From positions 1 to 64,000 of the forward strand of contig NZ_FOOA01000001.1 of assembly GCF_900113065.1 (NCBI RefSeq): DNA of 64,000 nt. The letters are read 5' to 3'. The DNA is from Aureimonas phyllosphaerae (lineage in GTDB: Bacteria; Pseudomonadota; Alphaproteobacteria; Rhizobiales; Rhizobiaceae). The notes below the pieces were generated by a model. That model was not told the DNA's origin, did not search any database, and saw only the letters and a program-made list of their open reading frames with translations. The translations under genes were made by a program, and so were the position numbers. Below are positions 37,207 to 42,022 of the stretch, in pieces (within the stretch, counting starts at the first letter, position 1; each line of letters begins with the position of its first letter).

Positions 37207-37551
37207 TCAGATCGCCGCGACGACAATGATCTCGACGCGGTATTCCGGTGCGGCCAGAGCCGACTCGCCCGTCGCGCGCGCCGGGGGATTGGCAGGATCG
37301 ACCCACGCGTCCCACACGGCGTTCATGGCGGCGAAGTCCTTCATGTCGGCGAGCCAGATGGTCGCCTGCAGGATCTTCGACTTGTCCGAACCAGCCTCGG
37401 CCAGCAGGCGGTCGATCTCGGCGAGCACGGTCTCGGTCTGCTTGGAGACGTCCTCGCCGGGATTGCCGACCTGACCGGCGAGGTAGACCGTGTTGCCGTG
37501 GACCACGGCGGCGCTCATGCGACGGCCGGGCTCGATGCGACGAATGCTCAT
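37207..37551 (-). CDS. RidA family protein
   Basis: A 114-residue member of the RidA/YjgF/UK114 family, which hydrolyses reactive enamine or imine intermediates. The family blocks RMSAAVVHGNTVYLAGQVG and ATIWLADMKDFAAMNAVWDAWV are clear, as is the terminal PEYRVEIIVVAAI. The Arg that binds the carboxylate in true RidA is not in the usual position (YRVEIIVVAAI against RxxVEV), so a RidA paralogue (Rid2-Rid7) is likely. Convergent with the epimerase gene. Confidence 0.9.
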   Translation of the reverse strand: MSIRRIEPGRRMSAAVVHGNTVYLAGQVGNPGEDVSKQTETVLAEIDRLLAEAGSDKSKILQATIWLADMKDFAAMNAVWDAWVDPANPPARATGESALAAPEYRVEIIVVAAI

Positions 37552-37623
37552 GAAACTCTCCGAATCGTTCGGTTCTGCGAGAGCTTCATACGGCGTGCCG
37601 GTCGGCTTGGACAGCGGCCGGGG

Positions 37624-37797
37624 TCAGCGACCCGCGTGGATCCGCGCCGTCGCCTGACGGTCGCGGGGCGACCATCCGGCGGGCTGGGCGTCGCGCTTGT
37701 AGAGCTGGTTCAGATCGTCGACGAGCCCCTGCTCGATCGCCTCGTTACGCGTGATCAGACCGGCCTCGTAGGCCTCGATGATATCGGTCGTGCTCAT
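37624..37797 (-). CDS. Small hypothetical protein (57 aa)
   Basis: The ATG at 37797 follows GGAAGG at a nine-base distance and yields an acidic N-terminal half (STTDIIEAYEAGLITRNEAIEQGLVDDLNQLY) that looks like two helices, then a polar tail. No membrane segment. There is 72 bp to ridA and no recognisable family; start and existence rest on the Shine-Dalgarno site and the ordered helical composition. Confidence 0.5.
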   Translation of the reverse strand: MSTTDIIEAYEAGLITRNEAIEQGLVDDLNQLYKRDAQPAGWSPRDRQATARIHAGR

Positions 37798-38009
37798 GTG
37801 TCCCACCCTTCCTTTGTCCAGTTCGCGGAATCCGCGGATCAGGGTTCGGTTCCGAGTCTGTTAAGATTTTGAGGCGGCAAAGCGGCGCACCCTGTCGTCG
37901 CATGGGAACTTCCTTGCGCCTCGCCCCTTGAGAACGCCCGCTTCGGCGACAGAATCCGAAGGGCGCGCAGCCGATCCCCGGCGCGAAGCGCGAGGGGAAT
38001 GTAACGGTC

Positions 38010-38921
38010 ATGCGTCTGAAGTCTTTTGCGCTCGCCCTGACGGCGGCAGTGTTGCTGTCGCAGACGGCACTTGCCGCGCCGGTCGTCGTGTCCTCGAAGA
38101 TCGACACCGAAGGCGGCGTCCTCGGCAACATGATCCTTCTGGTGCTCCAGAACGCCGGCATTGAGACGACGGACCGTATCCAGCTCGGCGGAACGCCGGT
38201 CGTGCGCAACGCGATCACAGCCGGCGAGATCGACATCTATCCGGAATACACCGGGAACGCGGCCTTCTTCTTCAACAAGGCCGACGACGCGCTCTGGAAG
38301 GACGCGGCGAAGGCTTACGAAGAAGCCAAGAAGCTCGACTACGACGCCAACAAGATCGTCTGGCTGACGCCCTCGCCCGCGAACAACACCTGGGGCATGG
38401 CGGCGCGAAAGGACGTGGCGGACGAGAACAAGCTCGTCACTCTGTCGGACTTCGGCAAATGGATTGCGGGCGGCGGTGCGGCCAAGCTCGCGGCCTCGGC
38501 CGAGTTCGTCAATTCGGCGTCGGCGCTGCCCTCGTTTCAGACCGCCTACGGCTTCCAGCTAAAGCCGGACCAGCTGCTGACGCTGTCCGGCGGCGACACG
38601 GCGGCCACAATCGCCGCGGCGGCGCAAGGGACCAACGGCGTCAACGTCGCGATGGTCTACGGCACCGATGGCGGCATCGCCCCGTCCGGCCTCGTCGTTC
38701 TGGAAGACGACAAGAGCGTCCAGCCGGTCTACCAGCCGGCGCCGATCGTGCGCGAGGACGTGCTGAAGGCCAATCCGCAGATCGCCGACCTCCTGAAGCC
38801 CGTGTTCGAGGGTCTCGACCTCGTGACGCTGCAGGAACTCAACGGACGCGTCCAGGTCGGCGGCGAACCGGCGAAGGCGGTGGCCGAAGCCTATCTCCGC
38901 TCGAAGAACCTGATGAAGTAA
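38010..38921 (+). CDS. Glycine betaine/osmoprotectant-type ABC substrate-binding protein
   Basis: A 303-residue periplasmic protein with a Sec signal ending LAAPVVVSSK. The OpuAC domain is shown by SKIDTEGGVLGNMILLVLQNAGI, DIYPEYTGNAAFFF and TPSPANNTWGMAARKD. It groups with OsmF/OpuBC-type osmolyte binders, but no permease or ATPase gene lies nearby on either strand, so the transporter must be elsewhere. Upstream is 212 bases with a large GC dyad region before the ATG. It ends in front of a strong bidirectional terminator. Confidence 0.88.
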   Translation: MRLKSFALALTAAVLLSQTALAAPVVVSSKIDTEGGVLGNMILLVLQNAGIETTDRIQLGGTPVVRNAITAGEIDIYPEYTGNAAFFFNKADDALWKDAAKAYEEAKKLDYDANKIVWLTPSPANNTWGMAARKDVADENKLVTLSDFGKWIAGGGAAKLAASAEFVNSASALPSFQTAYGFQLKPDQLLTLSGGDTAATIAAAAQGTNGVNVAMVYGTDGGIAPSGLVVLEDDKSVQPVYQPAPIVREDVLKANPQIADLLKPVFEGLDLVTLQELNGRVQVGGEPAKAVAEAYLRSKNLMK

Positions 38922-38948
38922 CGCCGCCAAGGCGTTGCCTCGTAAAAG

Positions 38949-38982
38949 AAAGGGCCCGACAGCGTCGCTGCCGGGCCCTTTT
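38949..38982. terminator. Bidirectional terminator between the osmolyte-binding gene and the min operon
   Basis: A 10-bp outer stem AAAGGGCCCG/CGGGCCCTTT (38949-38958 with 38972-38981), with an inner AGC/GCT helix. Plus-strand tail TTTTCG and minus-strand tail TTTCTTTTACG both fit intrinsic termination. Confidence 0.88.
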
Positions 38983-38984
38983 CG

Positions 38985-39149
38985 TCACTGGCGGATCGCC
39001 GCCTTCTCGGCCTGCGCTTCGCAGACCTCGACATGCTTGAGCAGTGCCTCGGTCGAGAGCACGGCCGCAATGCTGCGGATGTTGCGTCCCTGCATCTGCG
39101 GCAGCTGCTGCACGCGCTGCAGGCGGACGAGGAGTTCGGCTCGGTTCAT
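38985..39149 (-). CDS. Small unrecognised protein at the end of the min operon (54 aa)
   Basis: A 54-codon frame starts at ATG 39149, five bases after a strong AAGGAG site, 58 bp beyond the minE stop, and ends just before the terminator. The product begins MNRAELLVRLQRVQQLPQMQ and ends EAQAEKAAIRQ; it is predicted to be an amphipathic helix of Leu/Gln/Arg/Glu with a single cysteine, no membrane span. I do not recognise a family. It shares strand, transcript and terminator with minCDE and could be a Min accessory factor or a chance ORF; the ribosome-binding site argues for expression. Confidence 0.6.
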   Translation of the reverse strand: MNRAELLVRLQRVQQLPQMQGRNIRSIAAVLSTEALLKHVEVCEAQAEKAAIRQ

Positions 39150-39207
39150 CGCTATCTCCTTTTTCGCGATGGCGGAGGTCGGCCGGCGGCGTGATGCCGC
39201 CGGTCGA

Positions 39208-39477
39208 TCAGTGCGTGGCGGCTGTCGCGAGCTGCGGCAGCTCGATGTCGACTTCGAGGGTCGAGATTTGCTCGCCCCGGTCCATCTTCACCTTCACCTT
39301 GTCGCGGTTGACCGGCATATGCTTGGCGATCACAGCAAGGATCTCCTCGCGCAGCACGGCGACGAGGTCGTTCTGGCCGATCTCGGCGCGCTCGTGCGCC
39401 AGAAGGACCTGCAACCGCTCACGCGCGGCGGGCGCCGTCGTGGTCGATCGCTTCTGGAAGAAACCGAACAGGCTCAT
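39208..39477 (-). CDS. minE: Cell division topological specificity factor MinE
   Basis: MinE activates the MinD ATPase and drives the polar oscillation of MinCD. The 89-residue protein has the amphipathic N-terminus SLFGFFQKR, the MinD-contact helix [13 protein letters not shown], and the dimerisation strand [22 protein letters not shown]. Its ATG overlaps the minD stop by four bases. Confidence 0.96.
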
Positions 39478-40289
39478 GCGGCCCTCCGGTTGAAGAACTT
39501 GCCGAAGAGACCCTTCTTGTCGGAGGGCACGTTCATCGGAATGGTCTGACCCATCAGACGCTTGGCGGCGTCCATGTAGGCGCGGGCCGGGGCGCTCGCG
39601 GCATCCGAGAGCGTGACCGGTGTGCCGAGGTTCGAGGCGCGCAGGACTTCCGGGCTCTCCGGCACGATGCCGAGAAGCGGGATCGACAGGATCTCGAGGA
39701 CGTCGTCGACCTTCAGCATGTCGCCGCGCTCGGCGCGGGCCGTGTCGTAGCGGGTGAGAAGCAGATGCTTGTCGATGCGGCCGCCGCTCTCGGCGCGCAG
39801 CGTCTTGGAGTCGAGGAGGCCGATGATGCGATCGGAATCGCGCACCGACGAGACTTCCGGGTTGGTGACGACCACGGCGACGTTCGCGTGGCGCATCGCC
39901 AGCGTCGCGCCGCGCTCGATGCCGGCCGGGCTGTCGCAGATCACCCAGTCGAACATCGACCGGAGCTGATCCATCACACGATCGACGCCGTCCTGGGTCA
40001 GGTTGTCCTTGTCGCGGGTCTGCGAGGCCGGCAGCAGGCAGAGCGAATCGACGCGCTTGTCGCGGATCAGCGCCTGGTTGAGATTGGCGTCGCCCTGGAC
40101 GACGTTGATCAGATCGTAGACAACGCGGCGCTCGGCGCCCATCACGAGGTCGAGGTTGCGCAGGCCGACGTCGAAATCGACGACCACCACCTTCTGGCCG
40201 TTCTGTGCCAGCGCGGCGCCGAGCGCGGCTGTCGAGGTCGTCTTTCCGACGCCTCCCTTGCCCGATGTCACCACCATCACTTCAGCCAT
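39474..40289 (-). CDS. minD: Septum-site determining ATPase MinD
   Basis: A ParA/MinD-class ATPase of 271 residues. The deviant Walker A is GKGGVGKTT (10-18), followed by the KTTSTAALG helix and Walker [12 protein letters not shown]. The C-terminal [14 protein letters not shown] is the amphipathic membrane-targeting helix. Middle gene of the operon. Confidence 0.97.
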
Positions 40290-40348
40290 TGGGGCCCGTC
40301 CTCTTCATGGTTGTCTATCCGGTCGTCCTGCCGTCGCCGTCATGGCGA

Positions 40349-41125
40349 TCAGTTCGCGAGGGCGACCGTCCTCAGCACGGTATCGTCGAGCCAGACGTGA
40401 ACCGCCTGACCACGCATCTTGGGGTCGATGTCCTCGGCGGTCTTGTAGAGACCGTCGATCGCGATGAGTTCCGCTTCCAGCTTGCGGCAGAAGATGCGCG
40501 CATTGGCGTTTCCGGCCGAACCCGCCAGCGCCCGGCCGCGCAGCGCGCCGTAGACGTGGATCGAGCCGCCGGCGATCACTTCGGCGCCCGAGGAGACGGA
40601 GCCGAGCACGGTCACGTCGCCTTCGGGGAAGATGATCGACTGGCCGGAACGGACCGGCTCATCGATCAAGAGCGAGGGCGTCGTCGCGACATGCGTCGCG
40701 CGCACCGGTTCGGGCGTCTTCGGCGCGTCGGCGCCCGCAGGGGTCGGCTTCGCTTCCTTGGCCGCCGCGCCGCCTTCCGGCGTCTCCGGCGCCTCGATAT
40801 CGGCGGCGTTGCGGCCGCCCTTCATCTCCGGCGGCATGCCGGGCGAAAGAATGGAGGGCAGCGCGCCCTCGATGCCCATCACCCGCACGTTGCGCTTGGT
40901 GAGCTCGGCCAGAAGGTCGGTGAGCTGCTCGCGCGTGATCGGCAGACCCGCCACGTCCAGCACGATCGGCCGGCCGAGGAAGAAGCCGGTCGAGCGGCGC
41001 GCGAGGTCGTCCAGCTGGGTCAGCCATTCGCCGAAGGGAAGCTCGGGCGACAGCACCAGGGCCAGGAAGGACCGGCCGCGAAGGCGGACCGCTTTGCGTG
41101 TGGGTAAGGCTTCGGTCATCTTCAT
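40349..41125 (-). CDS. minC: Septum-site determining protein MinC
   Basis: Inhibits FtsZ ring assembly away from mid-cell. The 258-residue protein has an N-terminal FtsZ-binding domain (RLRGRSFLALVLSPELPF), a Pro/Ala/Glu/Lys linker at about 105-135 and a C-terminal beta-helix (GGSIHVYGALRGRALAG). The start ATG 41125 is used; ATG 41119 is an alternative, and neither has a clear Shine-Dalgarno. A perfect CtrA-type box lies 38 bases upstream. Confidence 0.94.
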   Translation of the reverse strand: MKMTEALPTRKAVRLRGRSFLALVLSPELPFGEWLTQLDDLARRSTGFFLGRPIVLDVAGLPITREQLTDLLAELTKRNVRVMGIEGALPSILSPGMPPEMKGGRNAADIEAPETPEGGAAAKEAKPTPAGADAPKTPEPVRATHVATTPSLLIDEPVRSGQSIIFPEGDVTVLGSVSSGAEVIAGGSIHVYGALRGRALAGSAGNANARIFCRKLEAELIAIDGLYKTAEDIDPKMRGQAVHVWLDDTVLRTVALAN

Positions 41126-41162
41126 TAACGTTTCGTTGCCAGCCGATCTAAGCGCCTCAGGC

Positions 41163-41178
41163 TTAACCGAGGGTTAAC
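41163..41178. promoter_or_regulatory. CtrA-type binding site upstream of minCDE
   Basis: TTAA-N7-TTAAC is an exact match to the CtrA consensus (TTAACCGAGGGTTAAC). It is 38 bases before the minC start. CtrA control of min genes is reported in Brucella and Sinorhizobium, so a direct regulatory role is plausible. Confidence 0.75.
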
Positions 41179-41220
41179 TCCTGCAGCACGCGCCAGCCTT
41201 GCGTCGGCGCTGAAACGAAA

Positions 41221-41243
41221 ACGGCCGCCCCAAGGGCGGCCGT
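41221..41243 (-). terminator. Terminator of the SDR gene
   Basis: A 10-bp stem ACGGCCGCCC/GGGCGGCCGT with a three-base loop; on the minus strand it is followed by TTTTCGTTTC. Confidence 0.85.
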
Positions 41244-41269
41244 CGCGGCAGGCTACAAGGGAGGTGCGA

Positions 41270-42022
41270 TCAGAGCGCGCCACCCTCCACCATGAAGTTG
41301 TTGGCCGTGCACATTGCGGCGTCGTCTGAGGCGAGGAACAGCACCATGCGCGCCACATAGACCGGCTCCACCGGCACCGGCAGGCACTGGCGCTCGAGCT
41401 GGGCGTTGAGGCTTTCCTCGGTGACCCAGAGCTGCTTCTGCCGCTCGGTCATGATCCAGCCCGGCACGACCGTGTTGACGCGAATCCCGTGCGGGCCGAG
41501 GTCGCGTGCGAAGGAGCGCGTCATGCCGTGAACGCCCGACTTGGCCGTCGTATAGACCGGCATGCCGCCGCTCGCCTGCATCCAGGAGTTCGAGCCGAAA
41601 TTGATGATCGAGCCGCTCTTGGCCGCGATCATGTCCGGCGCGACGGTCTGCGTCGCGAAGAAGGCATGGCGCAGGTTGGCCGCGATCCGCTCATCATAGT
41701 AGTCCGGCGTCACCGTCTCCCAGCCGTGCCGGTCGTCGCGCGCGGCGTTGTTGACGAGGATGTTGGCGGCGCCGACCCGCTCCTTCAGCCGCCCGAAGGC
41801 CGCCTTCAGCGCCTCAATGTCGCGCAGGTCGCACGGCTCGAAAGCGACGTCGGATCCGAGTTCGGCCGCCAGCGCCGAACCCCGCTCCGCGTCGATGTCG
41901 ACGAAACCGATCCGCGTGCCCTGCTCGGCAAAGGCGCGCACCATGTCGGCACCGATGCCGGACGCGCCGCCGGTGATGAAGGCCGTGCGCCCCTTGAGGC
42001 TCGGATAGATGGCGAAGGTCAT
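41270..42022 (-). CDS. SDR-family oxidoreductase
   Basis: Classical short-chain dehydrogenase of 250 residues. NAD(P) loop TGGASGIGADM (about 18-28), NNAARDD, and active site SNSWMQASGGMPVYTTAKSG with Tyr and Lys four apart. The C-terminus NTVVPGWIMTERQKQLWVTEES resembles sugar or glucose dehydrogenases of Rhizobiales, but no substrate can be assigned. It has its own terminator and lies upstream of the min operon promoter. Confidence 0.9.
   Translation of the reverse strand: MTFAIYPSLKGRTAFITGGASGIGADMVRAFAEQGTRIGFVDIDAERGSALAAELGSDVAFEPCDLRDIEALKAAFGRLKERVGAANILVNNAARDDRHGWETVTPDYYDERIAANLRHAFFATQTVAPDMIAAKSGSIINFGSNSWMQASGGMPVYTTAKSGVHGMTRSFARDLGPHGIRVNTVVPGWIMTERQKQLWVTEESLNAQLERQCLPVPVEPVYVARMVLFLASDDAAMCTANNFMVEGGAL

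Follow-up and report, generated by a model that had tools for sequence, protein, structure and literature searches.

The window, a stretch of 64,000 nucleotides from Aureimonas phyllosphaerae (contig NZ_FOOA01000001.1, positions 1 to 64,000), carries a min locus on its minus strand. In the order of reading, this locus is made up of minC (40349..41125; MinC_C PF03775, E 2e-30; TIGR01222 over cut-off), minD (39474..40289; TIGR01968, 344 bits, over cut-off), and minE (39208..39477; Pfam PF03776, E 5e-19; NCBIfam NF001422 over cut-off). A 54-codon ORF then follows on the same strand (38985..39149), which its homologues, purifying selection, and its place designate as the fourth gene of the min locus, belonging to an unnamed family. 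Its ATG codon is at 39149, the TGA codon ends at 38985, and the product has 54 amino acids. The 58-nt spacer separating the ORF from the end of minE at 39208 (39150..39207, minus strand, by coordinates) contains a Shine-Dalgarno sequence, AAGGAG (39156..39161, minus strand, read from the sequence), 6 nt away from the ATG. An earlier note on this DNA had described a strong Shine-Dalgarno sequence, a distance of 58 bp to minE, and a strand common to the ORF and minCDE. All three descriptions are borne out, with the identities of minC, minD, and minE backed by Pfam and NCBIfam.

Next to the 3' end of the ORF, a hairpin of 15 pairs (38949..38981, both strands) is likely a terminator common to convergent transcripts. 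Its folding energy stands out from that of shuffled sequences on both strands, at -31.6 kcal/mol (z -5.5) on the minus and -26.1 kcal/mol (z -4.9) on the plus strand, in agreement with the strong bidirectional terminator that had been placed directly after the ORF. The word "bidirectional" is fair, since an OpuAC-type gene convergent to the ORF (38010-38921, plus strand) stops at 38921, upstream of the hairpin. A simple terminator scan reported no terminator at the 3' end of the ORF, probably because its rule demands more T residues past the stem. Finally, no Rfam match at the gathering threshold was obtained within 37500-41500.

The coding status of the ORF was approached through its homologues. 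In a search of 101 genomes, the source genome included, the ORF was found in 20 of 20 congeners, and nine clear homologues (E 2e-13 to 1e-8) were found in other genera of the family. In all 30 loci of this search, the same frame is kept behind minE, at 35-101 nt, with an ATG start. Within the genus, 155 differences were counted in eight disjoint pairs, and these fall at codon positions 1, 2, and 3 in the numbers 22, 12, and 121. This count was made on 19 congeners in hand-picked pairs, leaving out the two most distant ones, L020 and L021, and with one additional Ser codon of L014 removed so that the frame is preserved. Nonsynonymous changes make up a share of 0.23, vs. 0.73 under random placement, and none of 500 simulations gave a value as low. 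Over 21 congeners, the pooled pN/pS is 0.31 for the ORF, 0.24 for MinE, and 0.16 for the available part of MinD; the corresponding mean identities are 77, 81, and 91%. The two refuting outcomes named in the earlier note, no conserved frame downstream of minE in relatives and equally frequent synonymous and nonsynonymous changes, were looked for and neither was observed: the frame is present in every congener and in other genera, and synonymous changes are in marked excess. Taken together, the kept frame and this excess support the view that the ORF is a real, previously unrecognised gene of the min locus. Purifying selection speaks against a chance ORF, and so does the fact that frame, start, ribosome-binding site, and place are all conserved.

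A profile built from 30 homologues was used to follow the family further. It gave matches (E<=0.01) in 93 of 394 Rhizobiaceae genomes, MinE being found in 210 of the same 394. Of the 93 matches with E <0.001, those with an E of 2.2e-19 or better are counted as strong; there are 87 of them, spread over 30 genera, and 86 of the 87 lie no more than 400 nt 3' of minE on the same strand, as established by coordinates for 61 and by reading of the locus for 25. This adjacency count covers 93 of the 97 profile rows, four with E >0.001 being left out. The 87th strong match comes from a genome, G206, that also has a copy adjoining minE. This extra copy (L136, contig C15 of G206) is a near-identical duplicate (96% over 267 nt) that has kept Cys43, and no minE is found in the stretch read around it. 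The six weaker matches (E 3e-12 to 5e-7) are located away from minE, two of them in genomes devoid of MinE. Conversely, no homologue was detected behind minE in 124 of the 210 genomes that have MinE, so that the Min system can do without the ORF. Named carriers include Aureimonas, Aurantimonas, Jiella, Fulvimarina, Mesorhizobium, Nitratireductor, Shinella, Brucella/Ochrobactrum, and Phyllobacterium. No Agrobacterium was among the named genomes matched by a scan that requires a conserved peptide pattern. Outside the Rhizobiaceae, the profile found no credible homologue in samples of the order (347 genomes) and of the class (289 genomes), sets that include some members of the family. The nine weak matches obtained there, with E from 9e-4 to 0.05, each cover only part of the profile; three of them were inspected. 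As to plasmids, a single tblastn search with one homologue as the query matched 14 plasmid records, none of them from Rhizobium or Sinorhizobium; plasmid records matching MinE number 326, including 152 from Rhizobium and 80 from Sinorhizobium. Two annotated records were examined, and in both, minC, minD, and minE are followed by a "hypothetical protein."

The signals seen in A. phyllosphaerae recur around the Min-linked homologues. Among 73 distinct genes, an SD-like motif is present in all 73 and an ATG start in 72, and the gap between minE and the ORF ranges from 35 to 229 nt with a median of 67. A longer gap, 330 nt, occurs at L122, which is outside this set. Terminator-like hairpins are found 3' of the ORF in 33 of 73 cases, where 16.2 are expected, and inside the gap between minE and the ORF in 7 of 73, vs. 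4.0 expected from shuffles. Along with the short gap, an excess of hairpins past the ORF rather than before it fits a single transcript carrying the min genes and the ORF, an arrangement with which these sequence signals agree without proving it.

The minE loci devoid of the ORF were also considered. Of the 124, 31 were read, hand-picked and mostly one or two per genus, and in 30 of them nothing ORF-like was found (best 4.6 bits) in up to 600 nt past minE (268 nt for L169). At L175, in genome G189, the ORF survives as a degenerate remnant, in frame but interrupted by a stop codon, about 50 nt past minE (19-23 bits); it is a sign of ORF loss in a lineage that has retained minE.

A quick tree of MinD plus MinE, rooted at its midpoint, was then compared with the presence of the ORF. 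The tree has 127 rows, 96 with the ORF and 31 without. Presence requires 10 changes on this tree vs. a mean of 28 after shuffling, and none of 500 shuffles was as low as 10; the starred branches alone force 4. Out of 123 inner branches, 24 are starred and 57 are open, and the tally of gains and losses is rough because these 57 are weakly supported. Ten operons, all without the ORF, form a deep branch (length 0.79, support 100), and the remaining 117 rows comprise 96 with the ORF and 21 without. The members of the deep branch are L140, L141, L147, L165, L168, L171, L174, and L176-L178. Three genera, g92, g114, and g148, hold both types of operon, ORF-bearing and ORF-free: their rows include six deep-branch operons without the ORF and four operons of the other type with it. 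This pattern implies that the ORF is inherited with the operon, and its clustering on the tree partly reflects plain vertical descent; within the carrying lineage, the ORF seems to have been lost now and then. More generally, the tree points to two deeply different min-operon lineages in the Rhizobiaceae, at times within one genus, and hence to operon replacement. One of these lineages has, in the ORF, a genuine fourth gene that is conserved and accessory.

Some members of the family are found in other surroundings. L128-L133, the six weaker profile matches, are divergent homologues from two other genera, without minE in the stretch read. They share 29-37% identity with the Min-linked rows compared and retain R3, L10, L36, H39, and E44. 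At L129, L132, and L133, the adjacent gene encodes a copper-type P-ATPase (TIGR01511, over cut-off), and at L129 a kynureninase gene is located on the opposite side; judged by eye, the surroundings of L128, L130, and L131 are partly similar. A query of this type led to two further homologues on Shinella plasmids, L160 and L161, which lie in other surroundings with no minE in the stretch read; in both, His39 is conserved and position 43 is occupied by Ile or Leu. Thus, all eight unlinked distant copies have His39 and lack Cys43. The fold of L132 is predicted to be the same as that of the Min-linked protein, in a model whose alignment includes Min-linked rows. Homologues away from the min locus, together with the many minE loci that have no detected homologue, indicate that family and Min system can each occur without the other. 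The family is broader than Min, and the Min-linked subfamily forms a distinct branch with a Cys and a Pro fixed in its own right. The setting beside copper-type P-ATPase genes deserves a separate study.

In this minCDE lineage, the protein is 49-69 amino acids long. Fourteen residues are invariant in a first alignment of 30 rows, and M1, R3, L10, L36, H39, and E44 remain so over 59 rows. Of the rows in this larger alignment, 53 carry Cys at position 43, matching the count of Min-linked rows, and six carry Phe or Tyr; at position 17, 53 rows carry Pro and six carry Asp or Glu. The six rows with Phe/Tyr at 43 and Asp/Glu at 17 are the unlinked ones. A wider count found Cys43 in 94 of 95 entries, which are not independent since they contain some alternative starts and near-copies; the true ORF of the remaining entry, L197, also has the Cys. 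Hence, every Min-linked copy parsed has both His39 and Cys43. The earlier note had pictured a short helical product rich in Gln, Leu, and Arg, and both composition (A8 L7 Q7 R6) and modeling go in this direction. Using the 59-row alignment, AlphaFold2 predicts helices at residues 3-14, 26-30, and 33-53 (pLDDT 94, pTM 0.78), that is, with confidence, a helical hairpin. The protein is probably soluble.

Searches against known families gave little. No Pfam family matches the ORF protein at E<=1, the MinC, MinD, and MinE profiles do not match it, and NCBIfam gives chance-level scores far below cut-off. One of these candidates, the C-terminal part of a peroxiredoxin (PRK15000), scores 12.8 bits vs. 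a cut-off of 301, with weak matches in 12 of 30 relatives (best E 0.0021). This match is taken as chance because the GRNI...VCEA stretch, its presumed cause, is kept near Aureimonas only. PHROGs gave weak matches for 2 of 30 members of the family (best E 0.0049), and a sequence search of the PDB returned three matches with E from 0.6 to 3.9. At the structural level, the best Foldseek match has an E of 2.0, and the best VIA-align match (Z 7.1, with 52 residues at an rmsd of 1.7) is to a protein designed de novo. No convincing match emerges from these comparisons: designed helical proteins, MntR, and MLLE domains come up at about the level expected of small helical bundles and point to no function.

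A fourth gene behind minE has precedents. According to PMC5908139, Neisseria gonorrhoeae has a minCDE-oxyR operon, in which the fourth gene encodes a LysR-type regulator of 306 amino acids, and in Chromobacterium violaceum a LysR-type gene is the fourth one of a minCDE-depR operon, for which co-transcription was demonstrated. The position of the fourth gene is the same as here, but the gene described here encodes a 54-amino acid protein with no Pfam match, and its co-transcription is putative. Owing to this size and to the lack of a Pfam match, the ORF product is not an OxyR- or LysR-type protein. The four-gene min operon is already known elsewhere with another kind of gene; the small family described here has no match in Pfam or NCBIfam. 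MinE itself (PF03776) is also a small protein of the same locus, but the ORF protein does not match its profile and is predicted to be all-helical, without strands. Small helical-hairpin inhibitors, Sda and MciZ, are known in Bacillus and illustrate that a protein of about 50 amino acids can tune a cell-cycle machine. They resemble the ORF product in size and helical build; however, they belong to another phylum and no sequence relation is claimed. In the Rhizobiaceae, Min work has been published for Agrobacterium (PMC5900048) and Sinorhizobium (PMC4433202), and the accessible parts of these articles and of PMC10117765 do not mention a fourth small min gene. Among the matches listed in a search of the open-access literature, no paper deals with such a gene in this group.

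What, then, might the protein do? A role in the regulation of division-site placement is only suggested, by the location of 86 of 87 strong matches behind minE and by co-inheritance with one operon lineage. We consider that the chances are about even that the fourth gene of this minCDE lineage encodes a helical-hairpin protein that binds a Min protein and thereby tunes the Min system. In such a scheme, the ORF would be translated from the minCDE transcript, co-transcription being inferred, and its product would bind a Min protein, for which MinD and MinE are equally good first guesses. Binding could involve the conserved charged residues R3, R9, R22, H39, and E44, and the bound protein would tune either MinCD inhibition or the oscillation. 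A more elaborate version is unlikely in our opinion. In one Rhizobiaceae lineage, with Aureimonas, Aurantimonas, Jiella, Brucella/Ochrobactrum, Phyllobacterium, Shinella, and some Mesorhizobium, it makes the protein a fourth component of the Min oscillator, bound to MinD or MinE, with His39 and Cys43 making the choice of division site depend on cellular thiol or metal state.

The main competing idea, to which we attach a substantial if less than even likelihood, is that the ORF is a genuine gene of the min locus with another job, for instance thiol, metal, or stress sensing via His39-x3-Cys43. The pair of residues is indeed present in all Min-linked copies parsed, homologues occur by copper-type P-ATPase genes and on Shinella plasmids, 124 of 210 MinE-bearing relatives have no detected homologue behind minE, and minCDE-oxyR and minCDE-depR offer a precedent (PMC5908139). 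However, a passenger would be expected elsewhere more often, whereas 86 of 87 close homologues stay behind minE on the same strand, and in three genera the ORF goes with the operon type. Moreover, the ATPase-adjacent copies lack Cys43, so that this residue is not a metal trait shared by the family. Two other readings carry little weight. Small size and the existence of some plasmid copies might evoke part of a toxin-antitoxin system or a mobile module that landed behind minE, but no partner gene is seen between minE and the terminator, the place is kept in 30 genera, and the comparison with PHROGs gave only weak matches (best E 0.0049, 2/30) with none in Pfam; we regard this as very improbable. 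The least credible of all is that a chance ORF, or else some conserved RNA element such as a terminator leader, has been mistaken for a gene, as the shortness of the ORF and the strong adjoining hairpin could suggest. It is in the main already refuted by the codon-position counts (121 of 155 differences in third positions) and pN/pS, and it also runs against the strong profile matches across 30 genera and the lack of an Rfam match at the gathering threshold.

Among pattern-forming systems in biology, the Min system is one of the most thoroughly studied, and it is usually described as having three parts. As a tiny gene directly behind minCDE in many Rhizobiaceae, protected by evolution and with an unnamed product, the ORF is a promising candidate for a further, unstudied player in the placement of the division site. 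Its constraint, near that of MinE in sister lineages, raises a testable question: is there an extra Min part in the polar-growing Rhizobiaceae? Min operons with and without the ORF inside single genera provide a natural comparison.

On the other side of the OpuAC-type gene, between it and a RidA-like gene, we also observed a second small ORF (37624-37797, minus strand; 57 codons from an inner ATG). It has no Pfam match and no homologue in 20 more distant genomes; homologues are present in 13 of 20 congeners (E<=0.001), and it is likely a fast-evolving small gene at the level of the genus.
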